A stretch of 30,201 bases of DNA from a virus: positions 1 through 30,201 of IMG/VR virus record IMGVR_UViG_3300028840_001842, one strand, 5' to 3'. The notes below the pieces were generated by a model that was given only the letters and a program-made list of their open reading frames with translations, was not told where the DNA came from and did not search any database. Both the position numbers and the translations under genes were made by a program. Shown here one piece after another: positions 11,016 through 30,201 of this stretch. The first letter of the stretch is position 1. Every line of letters begins with the position of its first letter.

Positions 11016-11650
11016 GTAGGCAGCTTGTTTATTACGATTCTAAATGGCGGGACGTCCAGCGGAAATGGGTGTACCAGTCTGACGAGTGGGTCGAGATGTT
11101 TTATGACCACGTCTACGCAGATTCTAAGTGGAATATTGGGTTCCTCCAGAATCCGGCACACATGGCGAATATTACGGTTGAGAAGAAACTAATAACTCCC
11201 ATATTTAACTATTACGCGTATGGATATGCTGACGAACCGAACACTATATTTGGGCAATTTGGGCAATTAACCGTTCAACCTTCGGCGATTCTTCCTCCTG
11301 CGCCTTGGAGGATTTCTGCGGTCTACAACTATTACAAACCCTCGCCGGGGTTGTGGTTCCACGCCTTCCATATTAGGGCACCTTTAGGCACGCCGAATCC
11401 GGGCGCGGGGATATTGCGCTCTATTGGGTATCGGGATATTTCTGGGCGGAGTTTTGGGCGCAATCGGCTAACCTTCCCATGGGAGTCATATTATTATGAA
11501 GCTGATAACGAAGGGGAGGCGTGGGCATACCTTACGACGCCTGAGAAGTCTGAATTTGAAGAAGAGCAGTGGCTCAGGGATAACCTACCGGCGTTTTACG
11601 AGGATACTATAGGGCAGGTTGTACCGTGGGGAGCGAGGTTGATCCTGTGA
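11012..11650 (+). CDS. Unknown aromatic-rich virion protein (212 aa)
   Basis: Overlaps the preceding gene by ATGA. The product is unusually rich in Tyr, Trp and Phe. Its N-terminus carries a repeated W/Y pattern (YYDSKWRD, RKWVYQSDEWVEM, VYADSKWN), then a beta-rich core and an acidic C-terminal part (SEFEEEQWLRDNL). No family recognised. Lying between a fibre-like and a nozzle-like gene, it is probably part of the tail tip or fibre complex, but that is inferred from neighbours. Confidence 0.75.
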   Translation: MSRQLVYYDSKWRDVQRKWVYQSDEWVEMFYDHVYADSKWNIGFLQNPAHMANITVEKKLITPIFNYYAYGYADEPNTIFGQFGQLTVQPSAILPPAPWRISAVYNYYKPSPGLWFHAFHIRAPLGTPNPGAGILRSIGYRDISGRSFGRNRLTFPWESYYYEADNEGEAWAYLTTPEKSEFEEEQWLRDNLPAFYEDTIGQVVPWGARLIL

Positions 11651-13608
11651 CTAGCCTCGTTATTAGTAATTTTGGCGGGATGATGCCTCGGTATGGGGTT
11701 CAGCAGATTCCGCCGCAAGCGGCAGCTCTCGTTGAGAATGCGATTCTATTGTCTGGGGAATTGCGCGGTCTCCATACGAAGCAACGCGTCATTGACTTGC
11801 GGTCGGTTGAGTACCCTATAGCGCGGGTCTACCGAGCGCAGTATTCCAATGGGGGGGCGTCGTGGATTACGTTCTCTGACGATACGGTGGATATGGTCAA
11901 GGGACCCTTGACCAACGATGCGTTCGACAGGTACTACATAACTAGCGAAGCTGATAAGCCTCGCATGAATCCGCTAGCGCGGTTGGCGAATGGCGATCCT
12001 AGTTACCTCCTTGGAGTTCCTTCCCCGTTTAATGCGCCGACGGTAATCCCGGATGATTCCGGAACTTTTGAAGACCGGGTCGTTACGCGGGCTTATATCT
12101 ACACATTCGTCTCTGTCTATGGAGAAGAGGGGGTTCCATCGGATGCGACGATTGCTGAAGGGAAGGATGATGATGTCTGGCAGCTCTCTGGCATGGACAC
12201 TACGGTGCCGGATGCAGCTGAGCGCAATATTACCCACAAGAACATTTACCGGACGATTACGGCATCGTCAGGGAGCGTTGCGTTTCAATTTGTAGCCCAG
12301 ATACCGCTAGCGCAATCGACCTTCAACGATAATTTGGATACGGAAGAAGTTGGGGCTAATTCGGTTATAACCAGCTTCAACCACGATGTTCCTCCCCCGG
12401 ATTTACATGGGGTTGTGGCCCACCCTAATGGTTTTCTTGTGGGGTTCCGGGGCCGTGACTTGTACTTCAGCAAGCCCTATTTGCCACACGCGTGGCCGGT
12501 AGATTATGTACTGTCTACCGTTGACCCTATTAAAGGGCTGGGGATTTTCGGCACGTCTATAGTCGTTGCGACTGATGGCTTCCCCTACGTCGCTACGGGG
12601 GTACGGCCGGATCAGATGACCTTCACCAAGGCCCAGACTGCGGAGCCGTGTATATCGGGCCGTAGGGGCGTTGTGTCGATGCCTTTTGGGGTTTACTACC
12701 CTACGGATGATGGGCTGTTTCTAATTGGGCCTAATGGATTCTCCCTTGCGACTACGCAGCTTATTACGAAGCGGGAATGGCAACGGGATTTTTCGCCGTG
12801 GTCTCTTCAGGCGGTTCGCTGGCAAAACCAGTATGTAGGGTTCTACGATTTTTCGTCGGGGTTGATGTTTGACCCATCAGAACCTACCGCCGCGCTTGTT
12901 AAGCTGGCGTCCGTCTGGGAGCATTCAGTTATCCAGCAGGACCCCTTTAGTGGGGCGGTGTGGTTAGTAGAGGACAATATTGTCTATGAGTGGAACCCAG
13001 CCTTTGGGGTTCCGACGACATATCGCTGGGTATCCAAAGAGTTTGTCACGCCTAAGCCCGTGAATTTTGGGGCGTGTAAGTTCGAAGGCGGGCTTATCAG
13101 TAGACCTCCATCTGGAGGTATTCCACCGCCGGGTGGCACCCCGATTCCTCCAGAGCAAGGGGAGGATTTTGAAGACTTTAACGAGTTTCGGTTTGGTTAT
13201 CCGCTGAACCCGATAAATTTCGCCCCTTTGATTACGGTACGGAAAGCCACAACGCTTCCGGGGTTTGTGCCTCCGCCACCCATTCTAAAAGAGAATTCAG
13301 CACCGTTTCATAAGTCCCCTCTTTACCGGCTGGGGCCTACTGAGGTGCTAATGACGGAGTCGACTCCGTTTGCATCGGTGACGGATTCTTACGGGGATAG
13401 GCAGACGCGAGAGACGCTGCCCGTAGAGATGTACTTCAGGATGTACGCGGATGGGACGTTAGTTTATGAGCAACAAATACTTGATGAGGGGGTGTATCGA
13501 CTCCCTAGCGGGTACAAGGCTAAGCGGTATCAGTTTGAATTTGAGGGGACGATAGAGTTGAAGTCTTTTAAGATCGCTGAGACTGGATCGGAGTTACAGG
13601 TATTGTGA
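11647..13608 (+). CDS. Putative tail nozzle/tubular protein (653 aa)
   Basis: I use GTG 11647 (overlapping the prior stop, with GAGG 8 bases upstream) rather than the GTG at 11626. The opening LVISNFGGMMPRYGVQQIPP followed by AALVENAILLSGELRGL is a pattern I associate with large beta-rich podovirus tail proteins (T7 gp12 position). The central part has many repeated beta motifs (e.g. VVSMPFGVYYPTDDGLF) compatible with a propeller-like fold, and a proline-rich loop lies near 485-510. The likely role is the tail nozzle below the adaptor. The family match is by pattern and order, not by search. Confidence 0.62.
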   Translation: MTSLVISNFGGMMPRYGVQQIPPQAAALVENAILLSGELRGLHTKQRVIDLRSVEYPIARVYRAQYSNGGASWITFSDDTVDMVKGPLTNDAFDRYYITSEADKPRMNPLARLANGDPSYLLGVPSPFNAPTVIPDDSGTFEDRVVTRAYIYTFVSVYGEEGVPSDATIAEGKDDDVWQLSGMDTTVPDAAERNITHKNIYRTITASSGSVAFQFVAQIPLAQSTFNDNLDTEEVGANSVITSFNHDVPPPDLHGVVAHPNGFLVGFRGRDLYFSKPYLPHAWPVDYVLSTVDPIKGLGIFGTSIVVATDGFPYVATGVRPDQMTFTKAQTAEPCISGRRGVVSMPFGVYYPTDDGLFLIGPNGFSLATTQLITKREWQRDFSPWSLQAVRWQNQYVGFYDFSSGLMFDPSEPTAALVKLASVWEHSVIQQDPFSGAVWLVEDNIVYEWNPAFGVPTTYRWVSKEFVTPKPVNFGACKFEGGLISRPPSGGIPPPGGTPIPPEQGEDFEDFNEFRFGYPLNPINFAPLITVRKATTLPGFVPPPPILKENSAPFHKSPLYRLGPTEVLMTESTPFASVTDSYGDRQTRETLPVEMYFRMYADGTLVYEQQILDEGVYRLPSGYKAKRYQFEFEGTIELKSFKIAETGSELQVL

Positions 13609-14979: not shown

Positions 14980-16035
14980 ATGTGTGGTGGTAAGACCCCA
15001 AAACCGCCCGATTTAGGCCCCACAGCGGCAGCTTCTGAGAAAGCTGCTGAGTTGAGTTTCGAGATGCAGATGAAGCAACTCGACTGGGCGAAAGAGCAGG
15101 CAGATCGTACTGAGGCCATTCTTGAAAGGCTTATTGGGCCGCAGCTCCAGATGGCGCAGGAGCAATGGGAGTACGGCAAGAAAGACCGTGAGGACTACGA
15201 TAAGAAGTATAAGCCTCTTGCCGACAATCTGATTCAGGAGTTTATGTCGTTCGACAGTCCAGAGCGAACTGCTCTGGAGCGTGGTCGGGCGATGGCTGGC
15301 GTTCAGCAGACGTTCGATGCGCAACGGGAAAATGCGCAGCGGCAGCTTGAGCAGTATGGGATAGATCCATCCCAGACGCGTTCTCAGGCTATGGATAAGA
15401 ACGCCCGAGTTCAGATGGCAATGGGTCAGGCGGCGGCAGCAAACCAAGCGGAGCAACAAACCGAGGCGATGGGTCGGGCGCTTCGTAGTGAGGCCATCAA
15501 TATTGGTAAGGGTCTCCCCTCGCAGGTTGCGCAAAGCTATGGCCTCTCTCTTCAGGCGGGGAATAGCGCCCTTCAAGGGCAGTTGTCGGGTACGCAGATG
15601 GGGGCCAACACCATGGGCACAGGTATGGGGTGGGGCCAGCAGGGTTTAGCTGGGCTACAGCAGTCGGCCAACATTCATACCCAGAATTTCCAGAACCAGC
15701 AGGCGGCGTTTAATCAAGCTCAGCAAAATAGCTGGGGCGCAGCCATTGGCGATGTTGTGGGGACAGGCTTGGGGGTTGCGACCGCCTTTGGTGTGCAGGA
15801 AGGGGGGTCTATTCCAGAGGATATGTCACCCACTCCGGGTCCGCGAGACACCGTTCCAGCGGCTCTTGAGGTCGGGGAATATGTTATTCCGAAGGACGTC
15901 GTTGAGTGGAAGGGCAAGGAGTTCTTTGAAAAGCTCACTGCTAAATCCCGTGAGGACTTCGGGGCGAGGGAGCAGAAAACGCCTCCTGCACCACCCACTG
16001 GGGTGCCGACTGGTCCATTTAGGAGTGCTCGCTGA
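14980..16035 (+). CDS. Putative internal virion protein B-like (351 aa)
   Basis: Starts at ATG 14980 with GGAGGA 8 bases upstream. The opening MCGGKTPKPPDLGP is a frequent start for podovirus internal proteins. A long Gln/Ala/Met-rich helical region follows (about 20-245) with little charge in its second half, then a hydrophobic glycine segment (GAAIGDVVGTGLGVATAFG, about 251-270). The end carries a motif shared by many phage proteins, GPRDTVPAALEVGEYVIPKD then GKEFFEKL. This fits a T7 gp14-type ejection protein that inserts into the outer membrane; the role is inferred from order and composition. Confidence 0.62.
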   Translation: MCGGKTPKPPDLGPTAAASEKAAELSFEMQMKQLDWAKEQADRTEAILERLIGPQLQMAQEQWEYGKKDREDYDKKYKPLADNLIQEFMSFDSPERTALERGRAMAGVQQTFDAQRENAQRQLEQYGIDPSQTRSQAMDKNARVQMAMGQAAAANQAEQQTEAMGRALRSEAINIGKGLPSQVAQSYGLSLQAGNSALQGQLSGTQMGANTMGTGMGWGQQGLAGLQQSANIHTQNFQNQQAAFNQAQQNSWGAAIGDVVGTGLGVATAFGVQEGGSIPEDMSPTPGPRDTVPAALEVGEYVIPKDVVEWKGKEFFEKLTAKSREDFGAREQKTPPAPPTGVPTGPFRSAR

Positions 16036-17126
16036 TGGACTTCTCAGGGTTCTCTAAGAATTTGAAATCCGGGTTTGCTGAAGGGTTGAAACTCACTGAG
16101 GCGGGCCTTGAGAAAGGGGCTACTCGGCAGCTGAATAAAGCGCAAGATGAGCTTGCTGAGTACCTGCTTTACGATCCGGATACCGACACGGGGGGTGCGA
16201 CCAGTAGTGCGCCGAAAAAGCCCACCCGTCGCGACTTGCTTGCAACCCGCCAGAGTTACCAAGAGAAATATGCGGCGGCTATGGCTCGCCTTGGCAAGGC
16301 GAAGCGGATGGCAAACGACGCAGAATGGAGTAGCAAGGCCGACGCGATGTGGGCCAATGACATCTCTAAGGGCTTTCAGAAGTACGCCAACCAAGCTGCT
16401 GCGGCTATTGAGCGGGGTGATATGGACGCCGCTGAGCGGGCGCTCAACCATGCAGATGGCCTTATGCCGTCCGGAGGGGCGTCTACGTTCAAGCGCAACA
16501 AAGACGGCAACTTCGAGATGACTTCGATTGATGAGGTCACGGGGGAGGTTGTCGAAAAGAGGATAGTTACTCCGCAGGACATTCGCGTACTGGCCGCAGC
16601 AGCGGGGGACCCGGCGAAGTTTTTGGAGCTAACCAACCAGCAAACGCTGATTACGCTGAAGCGACGCGAACAGGCGGTTAGAGAGGCGGAGGCGATTAGT
16701 AAACAGACGAAGAGACTAGCTGAGACTGAGAATCTGATAGCGTCGGCTGCGAATCAGACTGGTCAGGGGGCCTATTGGAAACAGGTTGCGGCGGCTCAGA
16801 AGCGGGATCAGTTTGAGGAGTCGAAGTTAAAAACTTTTAGATCGTCTATTGATAACGCGATTGAGTCTGGGGATCTGGACGATCTTAAAATGTCTATAGA
16901 GCGGCCGGATTCAGTTCGGGCATTAGCGAACCAACTATATATAGATGCGGGATTCCCCGATAACCATCAAAAGGTTATATCTGTGGCGAAAGATATAATT
17001 CGTCGGGTTGAAGCGGGGGACGCGGCAGCGATTGCGAAGTTCCACCAAATCCTAGGGGCTGCGGCACCGTCGACTTACTCCGGTTTACCGGGCACTCCCA
17101 ATATGACTGGCATCCCAGTGGAATAA
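16035..17126 (+). CDS. Putative internal virion protein C-like (363 aa)
   Basis: ATG overlaps the previous stop (TGATG), with AGGAG 9 bases upstream. The product is almost entirely helical and charged, with long coils (about 75-150 and 205-340) and no membrane segment. The N-terminal amphipathic helix (MDFSGFSKNLKSGFAEGLKL) could be membrane-active. It takes the T7 gp15 position, between the gp14-like and giant genes, and is likely part of the ejection channel. Confidence 0.6.
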   Translation: MDFSGFSKNLKSGFAEGLKLTEAGLEKGATRQLNKAQDELAEYLLYDPDTDTGGATSSAPKKPTRRDLLATRQSYQEKYAAAMARLGKAKRMANDAEWSSKADAMWANDISKGFQKYANQAAAAIERGDMDAAERALNHADGLMPSGGASTFKRNKDGNFEMTSIDEVTGEVVEKRIVTPQDIRVLAAAAGDPAKFLELTNQQTLITLKRREQAVREAEAISKQTKRLAETENLIASAANQTGQGAYWKQVAAAQKRDQFEESKLKTFRSSIDNAIESGDLDDLKMSIERPDSVRALANQLYIDAGFPDNHQKVISVAKDIIRRVEAGDAAAIAKFHQILGAAAPSTYSGLPGTPNMTGIPVE

Positions 17127-17131
17127 CGACT

Positions 17132-20100
17132 ATGGCGGGTACTCCTACTCAAAATCTCAGGGACCTCTTAACGCTTCAGGCTATTGACCAATATAAAGCC
17201 GTGCCTGATGGGGAACCCACCCGTCCCGGTATGGAATGGCTTCCGAAGGAACTAAATGAAAAGGCGTGGGAGTTATATCGGAGTATTGAGCCGCCACCCC
17301 AGCAGGATGTGGGGGTTCCGATACAAGGCGGCGGGAGTGGGGGTCCAGAAGAATTAGACTACCTCGACCGGCTAATGATGGAACTCGGCCCGTTCGAACC
17401 GGAATCGGAATCCGGGGATGGGGGGGTCTGGCCCGTCCTCAAGTCTGGAATGGCAGATATAGGTGTCGCCTTTGGTGGTGCGCTTTCAGCTCTGGGGGCA
17501 GCTGGTCCGGGGAATCACATTCTTCCTATGACTCCGCGTCAAGCGGGCGAGGTGCTGGACACAGTTGGGGAGGTCGTCACTCCCTATAAAGGGGCTATGA
17601 CTGCCCTGAAAGAGATCTTTGGCCTCAATGATCTCGACCCGGTGCCTCGTGGGGGGAAGGCCCTTTACGAGTTCGGTATGGGCGTTCAGAAGTATTTCAG
17701 CGACCTGTCCGAGGAGTATCTTGCGGAAGCCCGCCCAGAGGTGCAGGCCTATATCAATCAATATAGGTTCTTGCCGGAAGATGGGGAGAAATCGGTTTGG
17801 GACGAACCCCAAGCGATAGCATATAAGTTCCTCAAGTCCGCGCCGTCGATGGCTGCGGGGTGGCTGCCGATTGGTATTGCGGCGAAGTTTAATGCCGGAG
17901 TTAAGGTTCTCACAGCGATTGGAGCGATAACTGAGGGCACTTTGGCGGCGGGCTTCACAGCTAATGAAGTCTCTGAACGAATCGACAGGATGTCGCCTGA
18001 AGAGCTTGAGAAGTTTGAAGCCTATCAAGCGATTATAAACCGGGGGTACTCCCCGGAAGACGCCCGTGAAGCCATTAAAGCTGAGGCTATGAAGACCGGG
18101 GCGGGGATGGCGGCCTTGGGGGGCGTCATTCTTGGAGCCGGGATCGGTAAGATTACTCATGGGCTACAAGGGACTGGGGTTGTTCGCGGCGTTGGGATTG
18201 GGACGCCGGTAGGGGGGGTAGAAGAAGGGTTACAAGAGAGCTGGGAACAGATCTCTGGTAATGCTGCTGAACTGCTGCAAATGACGGAGCAGGCGCAGAA
18301 CTTGGGGATGCTTGTCGAGGGGGTTCCTGAGTCTTTCGTCGGCGGCACAGTTTTGGGTGCGCCGGTTGGTGGTGTCGCCGGGGGCATCGCTGGCATGGAG
18401 CGGGCACAACCTCCGGAACCGGTTCCAGAGGTTACTCCAGCGCCGGAAGCGGAAGCGGAAGCCGGGGGGCCTCCAGCGCCTACAGCGCCGGAAGCGGAAG
18501 CCGGGGGGCCTCCAGCGCCTACAGCGCCGGAAGCGGAAGCCGCTGCGCCTGTGCCGGAAGTGGAAGCCGCTGCGCCCAATGTGGCGAGTGAGGGAGTGCC
18601 TACAGATGGTACTTTGCCGTCTGCAACAGACAGGACGGTTCCCGAGCCTGCGGAGACCATCCTCGCCCAAATGGATGAGATGGCGGACCCTTCAACTGCA
18701 AGGAAAGCGGTGCTTTTAGCCCGTAGCACGACGGCTGTTCCTGACACGATGCAGCAGGTTTTCCGGCATCAACAGGACTTAGCTAACAGGGGGGTCTCGA
18801 TCCATGAAGTCTTACCCGAGACTGATCTGGGCATGGATATTGGGGTCCTTCTCACGACAGATCCTAAAATTGCGCAGAAGTTTCGAGGGATCACTGACCC
18901 TGCCGAGATGGAGCAGTTTCTTGCGGACATCCTTGGTTACGTACAGACCAAAGAGCAGGCAGTCGCGGAGTCGGTACAGCAGGGGGTAGATCCCAACGTC
19001 GTTGCGAGGACAGATGCAGATGGCAACCCACTCCACGAACAGGTGGTCTCCCCAGACAAAACAGCAGCAGCTGTTGCCGAGCAAAGCACCCAGCCGGGTA
19101 CAACGGGCGTTACTACGCCTCAAGATACTGTTGAAGCCCGCAATAGAAAAATTGAGGACCAGTCTGTTGGCGGTAGCGATGATACTGGCATTGCCGTGGG
19201 TAATGTTGGTGTTAGTGATAGCGCTGGCGGGAGTTCCGCTGGAGGACGTCCGGAAAGAGTAGTCTCATCGTCTCCCATGACGGGGGATGAGGAGCCGTTT
19301 AACGTCATTATGGCCCGCGCCCAGCTTATGGGATTGGAGCAGCTTAAAGCGGCGCGGACAGACCCCACAGCCATTGCCAGTATCGAAGCCCAAATGGCGG
19401 AGCACCGGGACGTTATTGCGGAGTACGAAGCTACGAAGGCGGGTAAAAAGCCCGCTAAGAAGCCTGCTCAGAAGCCCGCTCAGAAGCCCGTTGGAGAAAG
19501 TTCAGCGGGATCAGAAGGAGTAAATATCTCAAAGGGGGTTAAAGACGAGTACCCGGATGACATTAGAGCTTCCGCGATAATAGCGAATATCCGAGAACTA
19601 GACATAGCTCGGATGACAAGGCAAATACAAGCTGGGGAGTCCTCACAGACGCTTTTAGCGAAACTTGCTTCGGCATACAAGGAGCTAAAAAAACTCCGGA
19701 AGGAGGTTGCTGATTGGGAAGCTGCGCAGGCTACTGAGAAGGCTGAGGCTACTGAGAAGGCTGAGGCTACTGAGAAGGCTGAGGCTACTGAGAAGGCTGA
19801 GGCTACTGAGAAGGCTGAGGCTACTGAGAAGCCCGCTGTGCAGGCGGAGGCGCAGGTTACTGAGAAGCCCGCTACGGAGGCGGAGGCGGAGGCTACTGAG
19901 CAGGCGGAGGCTACTGAGAAGCCCGCTGAGGAGGTTTTAGAGGCGGCAACGCAGAGGGTAGCGAAGTTCATTGCGGAACCTAACGGGAAGGCGGGTTTTC
20001 AGGACTTCCTCAATCACGTTAAAGCTAAATTTGATGCGTCGAAAAAGACAGTTTTTAAACAAGGCGAGCGGGAGAAACGCAACAAAGCATTGTCGCAGTG

Positions 20101-23100
20101 GACTTTGATAGGAGCGGCGCTAGATCGTAATTCGAAGTTGGAAGCCGCAGCGTCCAATTTCATCTTAGGAGTTTTTGACTCCAGCTATGGGATGTTTCCT
20201 CCGAGGATGTTCACTGCGGAGGTTATGTCGGAATTCCGCCGTCTCCTCGCAGACCCCGATACTGACCTTTCTGTGGTGTTGCGGGCTTTCGTAGATGCCA
20301 CAAAAGACTCTGCGTCAAGTGTGCTTGGGGTTTACACGGGCAACCGTATGGAAGGCGCGTATGCCCAACAGGTCGCCTTGGAGGATCTTAGGGCCAAGGC
20401 TGGGGAAGCCGCACGGGTCGAACCTACAGCCAAAGGGCTACAAACCGCATTTGACAAGATAAAGAATTTAGAGACTGACCCGAACATTCCGAGAGGTAAA
20501 GGTAGACGAGGGCGGGTGGAGCTACCGATTCGCCGCGCTTTTATTGGGGGGTTAGCTAAGAAGCTCGTTGAGCTTGCCAAGGAGAACTCTCCTAATTTCC
20601 CCGGACATGATTGGGCGGACACGCTTGAAAAGCTGAAGACGTATACCAGCGCTGATGGAGAACAAAAAAAAGACCGGGCTTTGTCAGACAGAGCTATTTC
20701 TACAATGCCGCATTCCCGGCTAGATCAGATGTATGAGGCTTTAGGGCCGATAATTAAGGAGCTTGTTGCGGTATACCAGCCGATGCCCGAAGGGGGTGTC
20801 GACCTATCAGCGGGGGCACCGGGGAAGAAGTCGCGTAAGAAGCAAGATGCTGTGCCGGATGCGACTCTCGAAGAGATTAAGCAGGCTGATGATGCTCGGG
20901 CGGCGGAGACGGCGGAGAAAGTGAATGCACCTCCGGCCAAGACCTACGCTGCCGATACTGGGGGTGCTTCTGCTTATGACGTAGCAACTGGGAAGGCGTT
21001 AATGACCCAGTCTGCTGCGGCCGTTACAGTCAAAAGGGGGGGGCGGGTGTCTCGTGCTCAGCTTCAAGCTGCGAGGCAGGCGCGGGCGCAGGAGCAGGCG
21101 GGGGCTACTGAGCAGGTTACTGAGCAGGCTACTGAGCAGGAGCAAGAGCAGGCTACTGAGCAGGTTACTGAGCAGGTTACTGAGCAGGTTACTGAGCAGG
21201 CTACTGAGCAGGAGCAAGAGCAGGCTACTGAGCAGGTTACTGAGCAGGCTACTGAGCAGGAGCAAGAGCAGGCGCTGGCTGCGAATGGGCCGACTATTGA
21301 CCCCGAACTAGAGCAAGCCCTGACGGATTCGGCGGAGTCCCTTAATGCGAATCCGCTTCCTGAGCAACCGCCGGTTGTTCCGACAAGTGAGTCGCAAGTT
21401 GGGAAGCTAGGGAAGGTTATTGGGGCGACGGTTTTTGGTGCCGATAGAGCTGGGTCTACGATCTCTATCGCCTCCCCCGATGGGGGGGTGGCAGAGCAAA
21501 TCGCAGTCACTAAAAGTGAGCATGGCAAAAAGCGGGTCTGGTTTCCTCTTGCCTCTGGCAAAGGGCATTTTGATTTCGTTTGGTCCAAAACCATTAAGGA
21601 ACTTGCCACCCACATAGATCGACATGGGGTAGATTCCCTCCGCGATACTAAGGATTCTGAGGCACTGGTTGCGTTCAATGAGTACCAGTTGCCGGAAAAC
21701 CCGGAGGTAGTTGTAGGGACTGAGCTTAAAGACGTTGCTCCTTTTAAGTTGCTCAAGGCCGCTATTGGGGATATTGAATTTGATAAGTTATCTGAGCTGA
21801 TTAAGGCTTATGCGCTGGCATCAGACTCAGACGTAATTGCTGCGCATACGCGGATATCTAAATTCCTACAACCGCATGGGGCGGAACCGGGCGTAGTTAT
21901 GTACTACGCAGCGGCTATTCGTAGCCTAGCTGCTAAGGCTGCGCGACGTGGGTCTGGGTATACCGAAGCGACGCAGGATCAGGGCGGGATTGAGGCTAAC
22001 CCTGAAAGCACCTCCGTAGATAACCTCTCAATAACGAGTGCGGCGACCATTACTGGCGGGGGGTCGAATAGTGGGGTGGCGAAGCTACAGACTCGGCTCA
22101 ATGAGCTTCAAACCGCGATGGGTGATATTGCTGCGTATCAGCGGTGGAAACAAGGGTTTGACAAGCTTACTGAGACCATAAAACAGTCCAACGCTGACGT
22201 AATTAGTAAGATGGAGTTGGCGGGGGCATCTGCTGCGGATCTGAGTAAACAACGCTCAGCGGCCGCTTCAGAGTTGAAGTTGTTTCAGAACGACATGATT
22301 GATTCCGCGCTTTCAGTGGCGGGGGTAGGGAGTGATAGTGACACCGACATCGACGTATTCTCGGACTATCAAGAGGTCGACAATGAAGGCAATGTAATTA
22401 CCAGTAGGCATGATTTCGCCGAGGATAACGACCTCGATTCCTCAGATTATGAGTATCTTTACGACCGGCAAGGTGTAGATTACTACCAGTATAAGAATCG
22501 AAGAATAAACCGAATGCAGCGGGTTGTAGGGCAGTACGCTCTTATGCGTCGGTTTACGGATATGAAGACCTTTTGGGGCTTTCTACGCCAGCTAAAGGTG
22601 CAGATAGACAATGATCGCGCCTCGCAAATTAAGACGCGAGAGGAATTTATCGCCTTCACGGAGGATATTGACCGAGCTAGGGAGGAGATAGCTACTGGGG
22701 CACCTCCGCGAGATGCCATGCGGAATAATGGAGTCCCCCCTATTCTTGCCCGCGACTTGCTGGAAATGATTAAGGCGTCAATGAAGCATGAACATAAGAA
22801 TTTCATGCTGCCGATGATTGAACTGCTTGAGCGGTTCGGTGCGGGCGACGTACCTTTCGTATTTCTCAGTGCTGAGCAGTTTGCCATGCTCGACCCTAGC
22901 CTTACCCCAGAATCCGCGCTAAACGTCGAGGGGGTACACGTTACGGGGATGCGGAGATTCCTCTTGGATGGGGAGCCGTTTCTGATTGAGGGGTCAAACC
23001 AGCGACTAATCGACTCCCGTACCAATATTATTTTCCTCAACAAAAGCACGGCGCTCTCGGAGGTTACGGGGGACTTTAACTTTACGCAGTTTTTTAGGCA

Positions 23101-26100
23101 CGTAGATGTGCAGTCGTTTACTGCGACTGTGTTGCATGAACTCGCGCACAACATAACTACAACGGCCCTGCGGGAGGACTTCGAGTTTTATCTTGAAATA
23201 GCTATGCTGAAGCAGGAGATGGAGAAAGCGCTCCAAGCTAAGTATGGTGAGAAGTATGAAGCCTTAACCGACTATGACATTGGATACGCCTTTACGAATG
23301 AGTTTGAGTTCGTGGCGGAGATGTTTTCTAACCCGATTCTTCAGAAGCTGGCGATGGAGCTTGAGGTCAGTGATACCTACAAGGAGAAGCGGGATAAACT
23401 CAGAGCGGATGTAGGAATTGAACCGGAGCCGATTAAGACGTTCTGGCAGGCGTTCCTTGATAGGCTAGCGGGGGTTTTCAATAAGATTCTTGGCGGGAGA
23501 GCGATCTCCAGCACGATTCTCGGTGCATTTGTTGATGTGCATAGCGTCTATGGGCATACCTCCCCGAAGGAGCAGGCGGATGTAGCTGGGCTCTATATAG
23601 ATCACGTCATTGATCATCTGTTACAGGAGAATCGCCCCGAGGACATTCCGAAAATAAGTCTTGAGAAGGAGACTCTGCTAGAGGTGTTTGGCCACCAAGC
23701 GCGTAGGACTCCGGGGGCTTCGCGTCGGAATGTGAATGCGCGGCGGAGGGTGAATGCGCGGCGGAGGGTGAATGCGCAGCGGAATGTGAATGCGCGGCGG
23801 GTAGTCAACAGGGTGAAGACGTCCCCCGCCATTAAGAATAAGCTCAATGACGCCCTGTCTGCCGTTAAGGGGGGGACCTCGTCGCCTAGCGCACTTTCCT
23901 TGCATCAAGGAGATCAGTTATTCCGCAGGTTTAAGGGCTACTTCCAGAGTGAGAAGGGTAATGCGCTCCAGAAGTATGAAGATACTGTCCATGAGCGGAA
24001 TGCGACGCTTACGCATTGGAGGCAACGGGCGGAGCGGTTTATGCGGGACTGGGCGTATGTAGCCTCTGACAGCAAAAACCGGAAGGCCAACGAAGCGTTT
24101 GAGCAGCTGATCCTTGATATAACCCTATCTAATATCGTTTTCCGTAGGAATGGGAAGTGGGTCGCGTTTTCTGACCCGGCGAATGATCACGTTTTCGACA
24201 AGGCTGGGAAACGGCAGCAGTATAACGAGCTTCGTGCCAAGCTAGAGTCGTATGCGAAGGTCAAGAAGGGGAAGAAGTCCCTGTTAGATATTTTCGACGA
24301 GGGGACGCAATTCTTCTCAGATATTCTTGATGAGGGGTATCAAACGACCGTTCATGCCTTGATTGAGAGTGAGCCGGATTTAGCGGCGCTTGGAAAGACC
24401 AAGGTGCATTCGCTCAGGAATACCCTCGTCAACCGGATGCAGGCGATGGGGTTTAGCATATCCGCCATGAAGCGCGGAACGGCTTCGAACCAGTTCAAGA
24501 ATAGTTGGTCCGGGCCTGCGAACGTAGCGACGCGGCAGAAGGTTTACTCCGACGTCTTGCAATATATGGCGCAGGATATTTACCGGGCTAGTGGTGGTCT
24601 TGTGGCGGGTATGGACGCTATGCGGCTTGCCCGATCAATTTTTGATGTCCAAGAAGCCACGCGCTACAGCGGCACCTATTGGCCGATAACCCGCCCCGGA
24701 AAGTACGTTGTCTATGCCTCGCAAGACACTCCCATCCATGGGTTTACCACCAGAAAGACGGCGGAGACCTTTGCGGAGGAGGTCATGGCGAATCGGTATC
24801 CGGTTGGAGGTACTGGCAAGTATCAGTTCCAACCGCAGTCTAAAACCAAGATAGAGAAGAACCAGAACGGTACCTACACCGTTATAGTGTCTGAAAATGT
24901 CGTGGATATGCGGGACTCGCTTAGTGAGGGCAAAGCCCTCGTGGCGGAGCTTGAGAAGCACTTCCGGGCAGGGAACGTCCACGGCCCAGACGTCAAAGAG
25001 AACTATAAAGTTGACCCGACGTCCCACGGTTCTCTTGCTCGTGTCGGCCAGCAACTGAAGAGGAATCTTGGTAAAGGGTCTGGTGGGGCTTCGACCATCT
25101 CTAGCCGTCAAGTAGACCGTGCGATTCTGGAGATGATGTCGGAGCACAACTCCCGTAAGTCTGAGCTTAGACGGCGCAATGTTGCGGGGGCGGACCATAA
25201 AGCGGTGGTCACAGCGTTCGCGGAGCGAGCGATGGGGGCGGCGTGGTCGATAGCGGAGTTAAAGACCGTCCGTAAGTCGGCGGACGCTATGAATGAAATC
25301 CGCGAATTTGTCCGTGAGGTTCCTGACACGGGTACGCGGATCAAGTTGGGGAATGTGCGAGACGAGCTGCGGCGTCGCGAAGAGCTGCACCTTGAATCCA
25401 CCGGCATCTCGCGGATGGCGGACAATCTCTCGCGGCTTGGCTACTACCTGATGCTTGCTTCGCCGTCGTACTCTCTGATCAACGCCATGCAAGTACCGAT
25501 GGTCACCTACCCCTATCTGGCGGGCAAATTCGGCGTCAAAGGGGCTACGGCGGCGTTGACGAAGAATATGTCTGGCATTATGGACCCCATGAGGGGGGAT
25601 TTCCTCCAAACCAGTGGTGGTTTCGTTGATATGCCGCAGGACTTCATTGCGGATGTAAGAACGCAGTGGGGGGCACGCCAAGCCTACATTGACGATGGCG
25701 AGGGCAAGATGAGCCTCGTCCTGACGAAGGGGGATATGCTCCACGCCCTAATGGAAGCGTCGGCTATCGACACAGGGTTTATGACGGAGCTGACAGCTAC
25801 GCTTCGCGGGCGGCAGATCAGTCAAAGCAGTGAAATCTGGCACCGGATGACGACGTGGTCGAAGAGTTGGCCGCAGTATGTGGAGCAGATGAACCGGTTA
25901 GTCTCTGCGGGTGCGGCATGGGACCTTGCTATAGCGCGAGGTAAGACTCCGCCGGAAGCTGCGCAGATTGCGATGGACACGGTTAAGGAGACCCATGGGG
26001 ATTACTCTGAGGGTAACCGTAACCGGTTCATGCGGTCCTTCGGCAAGTACAACCGTGTCATCTTCATGTTCAAGACCTATGCCCAGTTCATCTTGGCGCT

Positions 26101-27046
26101 CTACGTCAAGAACATGGCGCACACGATAATGCCACCGTCTTACGTCACAGACCCCAAGGAGCGCAGGGCATACCGGAGAGAAGCCGCCGCTACCCTTACG
26201 GCGTTGACTATATCTCACGGGGCCGTAGTGGGCGTTCTGGGGGCGATCCCGCAGCCGATCATCTGGGCGGTAGCCGCGCTGCTATCGGCCTTTGGAGACG
26301 ACGACAAGCCCGAAGACTTCAATATGCTTGTGGAGCGCAAGCTGAACGAGATGTTTGGAGACACATGGGGGCATCTCATGTCCCGTGGGGCGCTCCGCGC
26401 CGTGCCCGGCCTCGGGGATGTTCACTCCCGCGTAAGTCTTGCCAACTTGATAGCGTACCCTGCGCCCTCCCGATACGAGGGGGCGGAGGAGTTCATGTAC
26501 TACCTCACGCAAATGCTGGGGCCTATGGCCGCTTACGGGGGTACGACTTATGACGCTCTGCAACAGATGGCGAACGGGGACATGGTTGGGGGGCTGAAAT
26601 CTATGGCTCCGAAGCTGCTTAAAGATGCCTATTCAGCGGCCTTGGAGTACCCTTTTGAAGGGGTTTTGGACAGTCAGAAAAAGGCTATGGTCGCGCCTGA
26701 GCAGGTTGGTAAAAGCTCCCTAGTGGTGAAAGCCCTTGGCTTTGAACCCAACTACATTGCTCGGCACAAGGAGCAAAGGTACGCGAATGTCAAATACAGT
26801 TTGGAAGTAGCCAAACGTGCTAAACTTTTGCGCAGCCAGTTTGCCACTGGGACCCCGGCGGAGCGGCAAGCGTTGGTGGAGGACATAATCCACTTCAACG
26901 CGGCGAACCCGTCAAAAAAGATCACACAAAAATCTCTCTTGCAGGCTATAAGAGACCGCAGAAGAGAAGAAGCCGAAATGCAGGCGGGCAAGTTCTTCAA
27001 AGACCGTGAAAATGCAGAGCGGTGGAGCAACCCGATATTGCAGTAG
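17132..27046 (+). CDS. Giant polyvalent ejection protein with zinc-peptidase motif (3304 aa)
   Basis: A single 9.9-kb gene in the T7 gp16 place; probably ejected with the DNA. Visible parts in order: N-terminal region with glycine-rich hydrophobic segments (about 110-126, 243-275, 324-344, 401-420), possibly membrane-inserting; Ala/Pro/Glu repeats (436-480); helical modules; KKPAQKP and ATEKAE repeats (to about 932); helical block (935-1270); TEQ repeats (1325-1380); helical region to 1880; zincin domain with H2002-ELAH2006 and a downstream EFEFVAE2063MFSNP; basic RRVNAR repeats (2199-2226); a region with YWPITRPGKYVVYA (about 2515); an LPD38-like segment (about 2766-2810, SRLGYYLMLASPSYSLINAM); a hydrophobic stretch (3018-3050). 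Domain names follow the phage 'polyvalent protein' families from memory. No lytic transglycosylase motif was found. The ribosome site is weak. Confidence 0.88.
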   Translation: MAGTPTQNLRDLLTLQAIDQYKAVPDGEPTRPGMEWLPKELNEKAWELYRSIEPPPQQDVGVPIQGGGSGGPEELDYLDRLMMELGPFEPESESGDGGVWPVLKSGMADIGVAFGGALSALGAAGPGNHILPMTPRQAGEVLDTVGEVVTPYKGAMTALKEIFGLNDLDPVPRGGKALYEFGMGVQKYFSDLSEEYLAEARPEVQAYINQYRFLPEDGEKSVWDEPQAIAYKFLKSAPSMAAGWLPIGIAAKFNAGVKVLTAIGAITEGTLAAGFTANEVSERIDRMSPEELEKFEAYQAIINRGYSPEDAREAIKAEAMKTGAGMAALGGVILGAGIGKITHGLQGTGVVRGVGIGTPVGGVEEGLQESWEQISGNAAELLQMTEQAQNLGMLVEGVPESFVGGTVLGAPVGGVAGGIAGMERAQPPEPVPEVTPAPEAEAEAGGPPAPTAPEAEAGGPPAPTAPEAEAAAPVPEVEAAAPNVASEGVPTDGTLPSATDRTVPEPAETILAQMDEMADPSTARKAVLLARSTTAVPDTMQQVFRHQQDLANRGVSIHEVLPETDLGMDIGVLLTTDPKIAQKFRGITDPAEMEQFLADILGYVQTKEQAVAESVQQGVDPNVVARTDADGNPLHEQVVSPDKTAAAVAEQSTQPGTTGVTTPQDTVEARNRKIEDQSVGGSDDTGIAVGNVGVSDSAGGSSAGGRPERVVSSSPMTGDEEPFNVIMARAQLMGLEQLKAARTDPTAIASIEAQMAEHRDVIAEYEATKAGKKPAKKPAQKPAQKPVGESSAGSEGVNISKGVKDEYPDDIRASAIIANIRELDIARMTRQIQAGESSQTLLAKLASAYKELKKLRKEVADWEAAQATEKAEATEKAEATEKAEATEKAEATEKAEATEKPAVQAEAQVTEKPATEAEAEATEQAEATEKPAEEVLEAATQRVAKFIAEPNGKAGFQDFLNHVKAKFDASKKTVFKQGEREKRNKALSQWTLIGAALDRNSKLEAAASNFILGVFDSSYGMFPPRMFTAEVMSEFRRLLADPDTDLSVVLRAFVDATKDSASSVLGVYTGNRMEGAYAQQVALEDLRAKAGEAARVEPTAKGLQTAFDKIKNLETDPNIPRGKGRRGRVELPIRRAFIGGLAKKLVELAKENSPNFPGHDWADTLEKLKTYTSADGEQKKDRALSDRAISTMPHSRLDQMYEALGPIIKELVAVYQPMPEGGVDLSAGAPGKKSRKKQDAVPDATLEEIKQADDARAAETAEKVNAPPAKTYAADTGGASAYDVATGKALMTQSAAAVTVKRGGRVSRAQLQAARQARAQEQAGATEQVTEQATEQEQEQATEQVTEQVTEQVTEQATEQEQEQATEQVTEQATEQEQEQALAANGPTIDPELEQALTDSAESLNANPLPEQPPVVPTSESQVGKLGKVIGATVFGADRAGSTISIASPDGGVAEQIAVTKSEHGKKRVWFPLASGKGHFDFVWSKTIKELATHIDRHGVDSLRDTKDSEALVAFNEYQLPENPEVVVGTELKDVAPFKLLKAAIGDIEFDKLSELIKAYALASDSDVIAAHTRISKFLQPHGAEPGVVMYYAAAIRSLAAKAARRGSGYTEATQDQGGIEANPESTSVDNLSITSAATITGGGSNSGVAKLQTRLNELQTAMGDIAAYQRWKQGFDKLTETIKQSNADVISKMELAGASAADLSKQRSAAASELKLFQNDMIDSALSVAGVGSDSDTDIDVFSDYQEVDNEGNVITSRHDFAEDNDLDSSDYEYLYDRQGVDYYQYKNRRINRMQRVVGQYALMRRFTDMKTFWGFLRQLKVQIDNDRASQIKTREEFIAFTEDIDRAREEIATGAPPRDAMRNNGVPPILARDLLEMIKASMKHEHKNFMLPMIELLERFGAGDVPFVFLSAEQFAMLDPSLTPESALNVEGVHVTGMRRFLLDGEPFLIEGSNQRLIDSRTNIIFLNKSTALSEVTGDFNFTQFFRHVDVQSFTATVLHELAHNITTTALREDFEFYLEIAMLKQEMEKALQAKYGEKYEALTDYDIGYAFTNEFEFVAEMFSNPILQKLAMELEVSDTYKEKRDKLRADVGIEPEPIKTFWQAFLDRLAGVFNKILGGRAISSTILGAFVDVHSVYGHTSPKEQADVAGLYIDHVIDHLLQENRPEDIPKISLEKETLLEVFGHQARRTPGASRRNVNARRRVNARRRVNAQRNVNARRVVNRVKTSPAIKNKLNDALSAVKGGTSSPSALSLHQGDQLFRRFKGYFQSEKGNALQKYEDTVHERNATLTHWRQRAERFMRDWAYVASDSKNRKANEAFEQLILDITLSNIVFRRNGKWVAFSDPANDHVFDKAGKRQQYNELRAKLESYAKVKKGKKSLLDIFDEGTQFFSDILDEGYQTTVHALIESEPDLAALGKTKVHSLRNTLVNRMQAMGFSISAMKRGTASNQFKNSWSGPANVATRQKVYSDVLQYMAQDIYRASGGLVAGMDAMRLARSIFDVQEATRYSGTYWPITRPGKYVVYASQDTPIHGFTTRKTAETFAEEVMANRYPVGGTGKYQFQPQSKTKIEKNQNGTYTVIVSENVVDMRDSLSEGKALVAELEKHFRAGNVHGPDVKENYKVDPTSHGSLARVGQQLKRNLGKGSGGASTISSRQVDRAILEMMSEHNSRKSELRRRNVAGADHKAVVTAFAERAMGAAWSIAELKTVRKSADAMNEIREFVREVPDTGTRIKLGNVRDELRRREELHLESTGISRMADNLSRLGYYLMLASPSYSLINAMQVPMVTYPYLAGKFGVKGATAALTKNMSGIMDPMRGDFLQTSGGFVDMPQDFIADVRTQWGARQAYIDDGEGKMSLVLTKGDMLHALMEASAIDTGFMTELTATLRGRQISQSSEIWHRMTTWSKSWPQYVEQMNRLVSAGAAWDLAIARGKTPPEAAQIAMDTVKETHGDYSEGNRNRFMRSFGKYNRVIFMFKTYAQFILALYVKNMAHTIMPPSYVTDPKERRAYRREAAATLTALTISHGAVVGVLGAIPQPIIWAVAALLSAFGDDDKPEDFNMLVERKLNEMFGDTWGHLMSRGALRAVPGLGDVHSRVSLANLIAYPAPSRYEGAEEFMYYLTQMLGPMAAYGGTTYDALQQMANGDMVGGLKSMAPKLLKDAYSAALEYPFEGVLDSQKKAMVAPEQVGKSSLVVKALGFEPNYIARHKEQRYANVKYSLEVAKRAKLLRSQFATGTPAERQALVEDIIHFNAANPSKKITQKSLLQAIRDRRREEAEMQAGKFFKDRENAERWSNPILQ
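18462..18539 (+). repeat. 39-bp tandem repeat, two identical copies
   Basis: Two perfect 39-bp units (18462-18500 and 18501-18539) plus degenerate flanks encode EAEAGGPPAPTAP-type repeats in the giant protein. Identity at third codon positions shows recent duplication or conversion rather than only amino-acid selection. Confidence 0.9.
19730..19837 (+). repeat. 18-bp tandem repeat encoding ATEKAE
   Basis: Six units of 18 bp, the first five identical (GCTACTGAGAAGGCTGAG), encode ATEKAE from residue 867. Degenerate units continue to about 19926. The tract probably forms a charged helical linker. Copy number is likely to vary among relatives. Confidence 0.92.
21104..21271 (+). repeat. 12-bp tandem repeat encoding TEQ tetrapeptides
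   Basis: Fourteen in-frame tetrapeptide units ([A/V]TEQ or EQEQ) over 168 bp, residues 1325-1380. Units are near-identical at DNA level (GCTACTGAGCAG or GTTACTGAGCAG), with a higher-order pattern in which EQEQ recurs. Predicted acidic, glutamine-rich flexible or coiled linker. Confidence 0.92.
23726..23809 (+). repeat. 18-bp tandem repeat encoding RRVNAR
   Basis: Four 18-bp units plus a partial one encode R[RN]VNA[RQ] from residue 2199, making a highly basic linker between the zinc-peptidase region and the C-terminal part of the giant protein. It differs sharply from the acidic upstream linkers and could bind DNA or serve as a processing site. Confidence 0.88.
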
Positions 27047-27060
27047 CGAGGGGACCTTAT

Positions 27061-27912
27061 ATGGCGCGGTCGAGTTCAAGACATCGACGTGAGTTTCAGG
27101 GGGAGGATTCCGCTGGGCATATCCCCCCCGATTTCGGAGAAAAAGGAAATGATCCTCTTCCTCCGATACTCTACAGCATTCCGAAGCTCGCGGTGACGGC
27201 ACCGGTAATTGTAGATATGAGTGTCTATGTGCGGACCTACGGCTCCGCACCGGACCCTACGTTTTCTCTTTCTGGGGATGTCCCGAGTGGAGTATCTATA
27301 GACTCCGATGGCTTGATGCAGGTTAGTAGTGCGTATGGGAGTTACGATGGGTTTAACCTCGTACTCTCTAGCTCGGCGGGGATTAGTACCCAGCCGATTA
27401 CTATGGACGTTTACGAAGAGTTCTATGCCAACCGCGAGTTGACGGGGGGTGCGGCGTCTGGGCCTATTGCAGGTGCGAACCCTCCGACGGGCCACGAAGT
27501 GGGCTTTCCTAATGCAGACGCTGCCCCCCTTGCTCCTGATGAAAACGGATTCGTGCGTTGGGAGTTTAATCCTAACGAAGCTACTAACCGGATTTATTTA
27601 GCAAAGACCTTCTCCAATGTGGACCTCCCACAACTTCAGGTGGGGGATAGGTTCCGGCTTCAAATCGAAGTGGAGAAGATGTCCGCGTCTGGTACTGGGG
27701 GTCGAGCGGTAGTTCTAACGGGGAACACCGGGATTACTATCACCGACTCCAAAGTGAACTGTACAGATATAAACCAGATTACCATCTGCTTCTTTGAGTT
27801 CACAATTGATGACGCCACATGGTCAGCGCAATTCCGCTTTGGGCTTGGCACGACGGTAACCGCTTCTGAGTATTGGGAGATGGGATACCCTTCGTTAAGA
27901 AATATCATCTAG
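27061..27912 (+). CDS. Putative fibre/receptor-type protein with Ig-like part (283 aa)
   Basis: Start chosen at ATG 27061 (GAGGGG upstream, 15 bases after the giant gene). Residues 1-27 are a basic tag (MARSSSRHRREFQG onward) shared with the next gene. Residues about 65-120 look like a He_PIG-type Ig repeat (FSLSGDVPSGVSIDSDGLM). The rest is a beta sandwich, possibly carbohydrate-binding (e.g. VRWEFNPNEATNRIYLAKTF and YWEMGYPSL). It probably belongs to the host-recognition apparatus. No enzyme motif is seen. Confidence 0.7.
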   Translation: MARSSSRHRREFQGEDSAGHIPPDFGEKGNDPLPPILYSIPKLAVTAPVIVDMSVYVRTYGSAPDPTFSLSGDVPSGVSIDSDGLMQVSSAYGSYDGFNLVLSSSAGISTQPITMDVYEEFYANRELTGGAASGPIAGANPPTGHEVGFPNADAAPLAPDENGFVRWEFNPNEATNRIYLAKTFSNVDLPQLQVGDRFRLQIEVEKMSASGTGGRAVVLTGNTGITITDSKVNCTDINQITICFFEFTIDDATWSAQFRFGLGTTVTASEYWEMGYPSLRNII

Positions 27913-28112: not shown

Positions 28113-28394
28113 ATGGGGATTTTGAGTAACGGAGAGGAAAACCCGGTTGACGACTCGTCGGGGAAGTCCACACGTCCGACGGCCCGGTTAGCTTCGGGGG
28201 TAGCGACAGGGCTTGCCGCAGGCGCAGGCATTCAGGGGGGGAAGAAACGTCGGGAAGAAATGAAAGCCGCCGGGGAGAAGCGCAAGGCAGAGAAGGCGCT
28301 GAAGGCGGATACGAAGGCGGCATCTAAATTTGAAGGGACTTCCGCCGGGGCTAGCCCGCTACCTAGTAAATTTGTGGTTGACGGTGTGGTATGA
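28113..28394 (+). CDS. Small basic unknown protein (93 aa)
   Basis: GAGG lies 7 bases before ATG 28113. A glycine/alanine stretch (ASGVATGLAAGAGIQGG, about 27-43) is followed by a highly charged helix (KKRREEMKAAGEKRKAEKAL) and a loose tail. The hydrophobic part is too short and glycine-rich for a clear membrane span, so I do not call it a holin, though a membrane role is possible. No family recognised. Confidence 0.7.
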   Translation: MGILSNGEENPVDDSSGKSTRPTARLASGVATGLAAGAGIQGGKKRREEMKAAGEKRKAEKALKADTKAASKFEGTSAGASPLPSKFVVDGVV

Positions 28395-28951
28395 CCTACG
28401 GGCCGGTCAACATTCCGGGGTCTCAATACGTTTATAACGTACCAAACTCTGACGGAATCCTTGGGGAGGTAGTTCGCATCGTGGCGGACCCCGTGCAGAT
28501 TCGCATAGTTAATGAGCTGAGCGACGTTTACTACGGGGCGTGGGCGCAAAACGTCCCATACCAGTATGGGGATTGGAATCTGATTGTCGCCGACCCGGAC
28601 GCCACGAAAGACCAGTTTAACCAGCTCCAACATCTTTGCGCGATGATGGGGTTAGTAGGGTTTCACTTCGCCAACATGGAGATGGGGTTCCCAGCACCAG
28701 AAAGTGCCTACCGTTTCGTAGACACTACGACCCGGCACTATCCAACCGTAGCCAGCAACACCGAGGAGCCGGTTTCCCCGATAGCGGGTGCCCCACTAGG
28801 GCCTGAAACTCATCTCGACTTATTACCTCTGTGGATAGCCGAGATGGACCGGATGGATAGCCTCCTCCCCAATAGCACGCGGGGCATTAGAGACTATTAT
28901 ATCGACCTTTTTTACGTGCAGACGGGAATAGACCTTACTGGGATCTTTTGA
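28391..28951 (+). CDS. Unknown protein in fibre region (186 aa)
   Basis: ATGA overlap with the preceding gene; its own stop overlaps the next start (TGATG). A mixed alpha/beta protein beginning MTYGPVNIPGSQYVYNVPNS, with a proline-rich middle (EEPVSPIAGAPLGPETHLD) and a helical end. No membrane segment or catalytic motif. Context suggests a minor tail or fibre-assembly component; I do not recognise it. Confidence 0.75.
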   Translation: MTYGPVNIPGSQYVYNVPNSDGILGEVVRIVADPVQIRIVNELSDVYYGAWAQNVPYQYGDWNLIVADPDATKDQFNQLQHLCAMMGLVGFHFANMEMGFPAPESAYRFVDTTTRHYPTVASNTEEPVSPIAGAPLGPETHLDLLPLWIAEMDRMDSLLPNSTRGIRDYYIDLFYVQTGIDLTGIF

Positions 28952-30201
28952 TGATTCTTTTGCCGGATGAACAGTGGATAGACATTCAACGGTACTGTCC
29001 AGACTACTGGGCGGACATCCCGGCAACGGACTTTTTTTGTCCCCCGAACGCGGTCGCTATCATTCTTCAGCAGTACCAACAGCGGGGGGTAAGAAAAGCT
29101 CAAGCTAGATTCCGATGCAATGGCAGTACGGATGATGGGAAACCCTTCTATGAGAATGCCCCCGTTGTAGAGGCCGACGCCGCTAATTGGAAGCAATGGA
29201 TAATCGCCCTTGACCAGAATAAGTTGTTCGAAGGATGGTTACCGGTAGGGAATGACCCGCCCGATAAGATATATGTCACGGGCTGGATTACTGACGACGA
29301 CGCTGAAATGGTTACCAATGCCGTAGCGATTGAGTCGTGGCGAAGCGAATGGGTCAATAACTCCACATGGCACGTACTAGACGTGTCAGCCGTTGCCCCG
29401 GATGCGGCCGGGTTCATTATGAGTATCTGGAATGGGCACTGGAGCACGGGCAACATGGCCCTTGTTCCAGATGGGGCCTCTGCGGAGGGGAAGGAATTAA
29501 GAAGGAATACAAAATACAACGTAAGTTACAGTGGGAGGTTTATAGTCGCAGGCGACACCGGCACGATGGAATTCGTGTCCTATGATCCGCATCCCAATAT
29601 AGCGGTGCTTTATCACGGTAGGCTGAAAGGCACCTCTGGGGTCTCGGGAGTTGGCTCCAAGGGGTTTAAGATACCCACTCCGGGCGACCAGAATTTAGGA
29701 TTCGTTAATATTAGCTATGCCGCAGGCGGGGTGCCAGCGGATGCAGTTGCTCTCTGTATAGATAACCCACAAGGAAATGCGTCCGGGGCGCTAACGGGCT
29801 TTGACACGCCAATTCAGCGACGTGTCTTCGCGGAGAGATATTGTTCCTCATATCTAAACCACCCGGTCTCTCAAGTGCTACTGACGCCTTATGAGCGCAG
29901 CCTTGATGAAATAGCCATGTATGGGAAATGGAACTCCTCGGTCGTTCACACCGTTTTCCTTGCTGGGGGGCAAGAGTCGGTGCCGCCGACGCCTCCAAGC
30001 TACAATCCCCGGACGAATTACACGGGCGATAGTGTCAATTGGAACGCGGCTTCGGGGTGGAGCAACGCGGACCCCGCAGGGTTTACTGTTGACCAACTCC
30101 CCGCAGGGCTGAGCATGACCTCCGCTGGCCTAGTCACTGGCACTACTCAGTCGGCTGGGAGTACGGAGGTTACTATATATAACGACGGCATAATCATTGA
30201 G
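28951..30201 (+). CDS. Fibre-like protein, C-terminus beyond the window (at least 417 aa)
   Basis: The frame from ATG 28951 is open for 417 codons to the right edge, with no stop. The start overlaps the previous stop (TGATG). The N-terminal 100 residues are mixed (MILLPDEQWIDIQRYCPDYW onward). Residues about 110-330 form a beta-rich carbohydrate-binding-like region (SYSGRFIVAGDTGTMEFVSY). After a proline linker (ESVPPTPPSYNP, about 348) a He_PIG-type Ig domain begins (FTVDQLPAGLSMTSAGLVTG). This suggests a modular tail-fibre or tailspike-type protein, with more repeats to the right. Confidence 0.85.
   Translation, partial: MILLPDEQWIDIQRYCPDYWADIPATDFFCPPNAVAIILQQYQQRGVRKAQARFRCNGSTDDGKPFYENAPVVEADAANWKQWIIALDQNKLFEGWLPVGNDPPDKIYVTGWITDDDAEMVTNAVAIESWRSEWVNNSTWHVLDVSAVAPDAAGFIMSIWNGHWSTGNMALVPDGASAEGKELRRNTKYNVSYSGRFIVAGDTGTMEFVSYDPHPNIAVLYHGRLKGTSGVSGVGSKGFKIPTPGDQNLGFVNISYAAGGVPADAVALCIDNPQGNASGALTGFDTPIQRRVFAERYCSSYLNHPVSQVLLTPYERSLDEIAMYGKWNSSVVHTVFLAGGQESVPPTPPSYNPRTNYTGDSVNWNAASGWSNADPAGFTVDQLPAGLSMTSAGLVTGTTQSAGSTEVTIYNDGIIIE

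Follow-up and report, generated by a model that had tools for sequence, protein, structure and literature searches.

A giant virion protein of an uncultured phage probably shares its delivery chassis, not the polymerase, with N4-type virion RNA polymerases

Behind the virion genes of an uncultured phage stands a single open frame of 9.9 kb, which raises the question of what kind of protein it encodes and what that protein might deliver. The window, i.e., the whole stretch of DNA analyzed, is the complete IMG/VR record of an uncultured virus, 30,201 bases long and of metagenomic origin. The frame (17132-27046, plus strand) runs from ATG to stop, begins 5 nt past the stop codon of the preceding gene and encodes 3,304 aa with zero internal stops. 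At the base composition of the window, the probability of an equally long open frame is ~1e-65, and a codon-position GC bias extends over the entire frame; the uninterrupted frame described in a sequence-only reading of this DNA was thus found intact. Third-position GC of the gene rises from ~0.55 in the first 2,200 residues to ~0.68 in the last 1,100, with a step near residue 2200, which suggests that the two parts of the giant are of different origin. The giant gene and the virion genes compared below are as follows.

11626..13608, plus strand: 660-aa virion protein, PHROG 511 (PHROG match), homologue of BcepIL02 gp63
14980..16035, plus strand: 351-aa virion protein, homologue of BcepIL02 gp66 and RHph_TM3_14A gp86 (PHROG 8003, E 2e-60; phmmer E 1e-70)
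16035..17126, plus strand: 363-aa virion-module protein in the tunnel-protein position, homologue of RHph_TM3_14A gp85 (phmmer E 4e-8)
17132..27046, plus strand: giant virion/ejection (polyvalent) protein, 3,304 aa; one ATG-stop frame, homologues within virion modules

The genes upstream of the giant encode the terminase, the portal, a scaffold-position protein, the major capsid protein, tail and other virion proteins and a GNAT acetyltransferase, and two more belong to the virion module. The closest isolates are the Rhizobium phages RHph_TM3_14A, TM27A, TM27B and TM29 (portal identity 48%), with which the window shares homologous terminase, scaffold-position, capsid and PHROG 511 proteins. 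The genes starting at 14437, 14980 and 16035 and the giant correspond to the GNAT slot, gp86, gp85 and gp84 of this group. Virion genes of the window are also homologous to gp54, gp61, gp63 and gp66 of Lessievirus BcepIL02, establishing synteny with the Bcep22-like virion module, which in BcepIL02 ends in the 4,667-aa 'DarB-like' gp70. A homologue of the giant, the 4,515-aa gp69 of phage JC1, was detected in CsCl-purified virions with 51 unique peptides and the second-best score (PMC9144972). These virion neighbors and the presence of JC1 gp69 in particles agree with the initial description of the giant as a polyvalent-type protein with several domains, encoded where an ejection protein is expected. 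The same reading had called the upstream genes gp13/14/15-like; their position fits this label, and sequence similarity to T7 gp13-16 was detected neither for the virion genes nor for the giant. Likewise, no homology was found between the two genes preceding the giant and N4 gp51/gp52.

Several features of the neighborhood were recorded alongside. RHph_TM3_14A gp85 (L006:18473-21364) has 963 aa, compared with 363 aa for its window counterpart at 16035-17126; it includes a stretch that by eye resembles a tail-lysozyme domain, and an annotated attR site lies inside it. Three genes 3' of the giant (27022-27912, 28391-28951 and 28948-30201), the first of which overlaps the end of the giant gene by 25 nt, appear on visual inspection to encode tail fibres or adhesins, the last with an Ig-like C-terminus; none matched a PHROG, or a Pfam family above cut-off. 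A relative of the 351-aa virion protein, 40% identical, is encoded on a contig of a Thiotrichales MAG (L143), which may point to the host group of the window lineage.

The phage-type polyvalent proteins of Iyer et al. 2017 are large multi-domain proteins linked to virion or late genes. The giant has 3,304 aa behind virion genes and carries polyvalent-type domains, namely a zincin MPTase, recognized by profile comparison, and an LPD (LPD39), above cut-off when scanned as a segment. It is a polyvalent virion protein of the already known Bcep22-like (DarB/PLxRFG) kind. The window protein is of ordinary size for its family: the shortest near-relative giant, an incomplete one, has 1,873 aa and the longest 3,617 aa, and lengths of up to 4,899 aa occur among more distant relatives.

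The N-terminal part links the giant to a second group of proteins.

17624..18406, plus strand: N-terminal module (NTD), residues ~165-425, with homologous NTDs in N4-type virion RNA polymerases and in DarB-like giants (PHROG, PDB sequence search, hhalign, HMM)
17864..17962, plus strand: hydrophobic stretch, residues 245-277, candidate membrane helices (hydropathy)

A PHROG scan of residues 1-430, the segment ahead of the first low-complexity linker, hit three families over almost the same stretch: DarB-like giants (3e-13), virion RNA polymerases (3e-10) and another family of giants (1e-7). In a PDB sequence search with the N-terminal segment, only the N4 virion RNA polymerase (vRNAP) rose above noise (residues 261-422 against 288-445, E 0.003). 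Profile alignment by hhalign of the NTDs of the window and eight relatives against six schitovirus NTDs gave a probability of 98.5 and an E of 2e-15 over 223 columns, while decoys made of reversed profiles and unrelated domains stayed at E of at least 0.19; these are single-pair E-values. A polymerase-free HMM built from the relatives' NTD matched the NTDs of N4, OLIVR2, KpCHEMY26 and Pokken (4e-8 to 1e-14) and none of 500 block-shuffled decoys, and in the reciprocal search an N4-side NTD HMM matched IMG/VR giants. Judged by these sequence comparisons, the NTD of the giant is homologous to that of N4-type virion RNA polymerases. The NTD of N4 vRNAP inserts into the membrane, with helices predicted between residues 224 and 278 (PMC12633501). 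The hydrophobic glycine-rich segments noticed earlier near the N-terminus of the giant were located by hydropathy as Gly/Ala-rich segments at residues 245-277, 320-345 and 401-421.

Among IMG/VR tail-domain giants with a complete start in the locus, 17 of 31, some of them not independent, carry the NTD and 14 gave no match to this HMM; the near-relative giants were sampled via a virion-gene neighbor and are thus not a random sample. The module is further present in BcepIL02, Atu_ph08, POI1126 and PBC5 gp22, with a wall-hydrolase domain ahead of it in BcepIL02 and POI1126. In PBC5 (L152) the giant is divided over two genes, with the NTD in gp22 and the tail domain in gp21. A similar division is seen in one IMG/VR contig (L014:12563-15181, L127:6206-10774), with the NTD in one gene and the tail domain plus zincin in the other; tail-fibre-like genes and a transposase-like ORF are situated close to the break, and the contig is possibly a rearranged or integrated record.

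A second domain points in the same direction.

22748..23551, plus strand: zincin-like metallopeptidase, residues 1873-2140, homologous to C1 of N4-type vRNAPs (hhalign, HMM)
23135..23149, plus strand: HExxH motif HELAH, residues 2002-2006

The peptidase motif placed mid-protein by the sequence-only reading is HELAH at residue 2002 with EFVAE downstream, and the third ligand of the putative zincin is likely the Glu within EFEFVAEMF (2057-2065). The alignment with vRNAP C1 by hhalign reached a probability of 98.5 and an E of 2e-15 (reversed decoy, 0.22; all decoys for NTD and zincin at 0.1 or above), and HMM matches extended to the C1 domains of many schitovirus vRNAPs. On these profile matches, the zincin is homologous to C1 of N4-type vRNAPs. 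HExxH stands 1,155-1,303 aa ahead of the C-terminus in the window giant and its near relatives; for 13 schitovirus vRNAPs the corresponding distance is 1,064-1,313 aa. Of 83 tail-domain giants, 29 have the motif between 900 and 1,400 aa from the C-terminus, compared with 1.2% in shuffles. A WLM Pfam match below cut-off coincides with the domain, consistent with a zincin.

No single-subunit RNA polymerase core was recognized in the window protein by profile match or polymerase motif set, and the core is absent from relatives and IMG/VR loci as well; a polymerase remnant in the middle of the giant was considered and left no trace. The zincin is the domain by which Iyer et al. 2017 had connected N4 vRNAP with polyvalent proteins; when they searched with the N4 N-terminal region and the polymerase domain, N4-like polymerases were all that came back (PMC5512222). 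In our literature search, mainly outside subscription papers, the vRNAP NTD was nowhere joined to DarB-like giants, so that the NTD link appears to be undescribed in the literature searched.

Between the NTD and the zincin, low-complexity linkers alternate with three blocks, and a further linker follows the zincin.

18350..18631, plus strand: low-complexity linker 1, residues 407-500, 39-nt tandem repeat
18632..19648, plus strand: block A, residues 501-839, without Pfam or PHROG match; weak similarity to L124
19649..19981, plus strand: low-complexity linker 2, residues 840-950, EATEKA repeats (18 nt x 5.8 copies at 100%)
19982..21007, plus strand: block B, residues 951-1292, without match in Pfam, PHROGs, the comparison loci or viral_contigs
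21008..21328, plus strand: low-complexity linker 3, residues 1293-1399, TEQ(A/V)TEQ repeats
21329..22747, plus strand: block C, residues 1400-1872, without Pfam or PHROG match
23681..23854, plus strand: Arg-rich low-complexity linker 4, residues 2184-2241, RRVNA repeats

Repeats between the blocks had been mentioned and are present as linkers. At the DNA level, perfect or near-perfect tandem repeats occupy 18450-18542, 19728-19831, 21088-21273 and 23721-23800, as recent slippage would give. The earlier list of unnamed helical blocks holds for 501-839, 951-1292 and 1400-1872; 2230-2500 proved to be largely LPD39 and 1873-2140 the zincin, which leaves three blocks without assignment. Blocks A-C matched neither Pfam nor PHROGs, and single-sequence patterns of blocks B and C found no relative in viral_contigs. 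The sole signal of a relative is the weak similarity of block A to a near relative (L124). Pfam matches to T2SSF and Cytochrom_B562 fell below cut-off and were taken as chance. The structure prediction proposed as a check in the sequence-only reading, a single-sequence AF2 model of the middle region (residues 930-1990, without alignment), reached a pLDDT of 41, too low for a usable fold.

The middle is the least conserved part among the giants. Its place is taken by an inorganic pyrophosphatase in RHph_TM3_14A gp84 and L128, and by a methylase and a helicase in BcepIL02 and POI1126; no recognizable domain was found in the middle of L123-L126, and in several relatives this region is similarly long as in the window. 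By position only, blocks A-C are candidates for cargo. We consider it unlikely that the giant is instead an infection conduit or structural protein of the T7 gp16 kind, with the blocks as scaffold or spacer helices of a trans-envelope channel and no effector activity in the cytoplasm. Such a role would suit helical, low-information blocks and a gene placed after two smaller virion genes, and the vRNAP of phage DEV (gp71), expressed with gp72 and gp73, has been described as an ejection protein and a functional counterpart of T7 gp16 (PMC10925440). However, the giant has neither gp16 similarity nor a wall-hydrolase domain, and a middle that is conserved least of all and contains enzymes in related giants is more cargo-like than scaffold-like. 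It is far less probable still that the giant is a degenerate relic, its cargo having decayed once an enzyme had been lost, with the frame retained for packaging only. Although the blocks lack recognizable domains and perfect tandem repeats are prone to slippage, 9.9 kb without stop or frameshift, a coding signature over the whole frame, an intact zincin motif and similarly long middles without assignment kept in several relatives all speak against decay.

The C-terminal region brings the giant back to its own family.

23867..24247, plus strand: LPD39, PF18858, residues ~2246-2372 (28.6 bits against a Pfam cut-off of 27, scanned as segment)
24869..27007, plus strand: NF032893 'tail-700 / PLxRFG' domain, residues 2580-3292 (NCBIfam E 8e-81, 272.5 bits against a cut-off of 100)

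An LPD38-like C-terminus had been proposed; LPD38 was not found, and LPD39 and the NF032893 tail-700 domain stand there instead. LPD39 also occurs in L126, L127 and POI1126. The literal PLxRFG is absent from the window giant, its equivalent being PITRPG at residue 2518. The C-terminal ~800 residues align with giants of Atu_ph08, POI1126 and a Vibrio phage at ~25% identity (E 1e-32 to 6e-44). An AF2 model of residues 2110-3304 (pLDDT 68.5, pTM 0.67) found its best fold matches in BFVD among viral polyvalent-type proteins, with E down to 3e-29; a PDB fold search gave no match (best E 0.15), and the N4 CTD entry may lie outside the fold library. Homology of the whole C-terminal half with N4 vRNAP C2 was considered and is not supported: the hhalign E of 0.009 with small profiles became 0.22 with 65 sequences, equal to reversed decoys. 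The chassis match to N4 thus covers two domains and not the whole protein.

Since the C-terminal homology and the synteny lead to proteins annotated as DarB-like, and P1 DarB works in cis on injected DNA (PMC5512222), the giant could be an antirestriction protein whose catalytic domains were lost or replaced, injected to shield the DNA, with the blocks as a divergent protection module. We regard this as quite unlikely. No methylase-SNF2 helicase pair, nor either enzyme, was found in the giant by Pfam, PHROGs or NCBIfam, and the NTD, zincin and tail-700 profiles are all without a match in P1 DarB, so that the shared parts are not antirestriction parts. P1 DarB has the label in common with the relatives of the window giant. 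P1 DarB comes from a contractile-tailed phage.

Together, our results favor a giant ejection protein whose delivery chassis is shared with the N4-type virion RNA polymerase, the polymerase being absent, a reading to which we assign a probability of roughly 0.7. The vRNAP of phage DEV, as an ejection protein, fits this reading too. We infer a common delivery chassis with exchangeable cargo. By analogy with JC1 gp69, found in virions, the giant is very probably packed in the capsid and delivered into the bacterium with the DNA; injection has been shown for N4 vRNAP. After adsorption it would pass the tail behind the smaller ejection proteins as a string of separate domains; its linker-separated layout is what the beads-on-a-string ejection proposed for N4 vRNAP (PMC12633501) would want. 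The N-terminal module would then insert into the inner membrane or dock there, a role supported by the N4 NTD, and the middle blocks would arrive in the cytoplasm as cargo. The zincin may free or trim pieces by (auto)proteolysis, and the LPD39/tail-700 C-terminus may serve packaging, like the C-terminal region of N4 vRNAP.

More tentatively, the N4 vRNAP NTD could be a general phage protein-delivery module that, with the zincin, forms a chassis for an RNA polymerase, a methylase-helicase, a pyrophosphatase or, here, three cargo domains that act inside the host cell, in its cytoplasm, at the very start of infection. The passage of proteins of 300-550 kDa through a tail channel of ~35 A into the cytoplasm is a question posed for N4. 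An NTD common to N4-type polymerases and polymerase-free giants would name the common part responsible for entry, testable in other phages, and the NTD and zincin together would offer a handle for finding injected effectors in uncultured phages.

Among known systems, T7 gp16 resembles the giant in being the last and largest gene of the virion/ejection set. It differs in sequence, without detectable similarity, and in its transglycosylase domain, which the giant lacks. The idea that the giant replaces or extends a gp16-type protein is accordingly not upheld: its measurable relatives are DarB/PLxRFG giants and, for two domains, N4-type vRNAPs, which leaves descent from gp16 unsupported. The giants of Bcep22-like podophages (BcepIL02 gp70, JC1 gp69, POI1126 gp30 and Atu_ph08 gp21) share its size class and virion-module gene content, the NTD in BcepIL02, POI1126 and Atu_ph08, and tail-700 in the latter two. 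These giants have a wall hydrolase, an Eco57I-type methylase, an SNF2 helicase and LPD3, and none of these enzymes occurs in the window giant; LPD38 is found in the BcepIL02 giant and LPD39 in that of POI1126. RHph_TM3_14A gp84 (2,307 aa) has the NTD, zincin (WHEATH), tail-700 and colinear head and virion genes of the window, but is ~1,000 aa shorter and contains the inorganic pyrophosphatase domain absent from the window giant.

The N4 vRNAP consists of a membrane-inserting NTD, a low-complexity linker, the polymerase, the HExxH domain C1 and C2, which is without known relatives (PMC12633501). Unlike the N4-type vRNAPs (Schitoviridae gp50), the window giant is without the RNA polymerase core, holds ~1,400 residues of unassigned content in its place and lies beside virion genes of the Bcep22-like/RHph_TM type. 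Common to both are the NTD followed by the HExxH domain C1 in the same order, a similar distance of HExxH from the C-terminus and the separation of domains by linkers.
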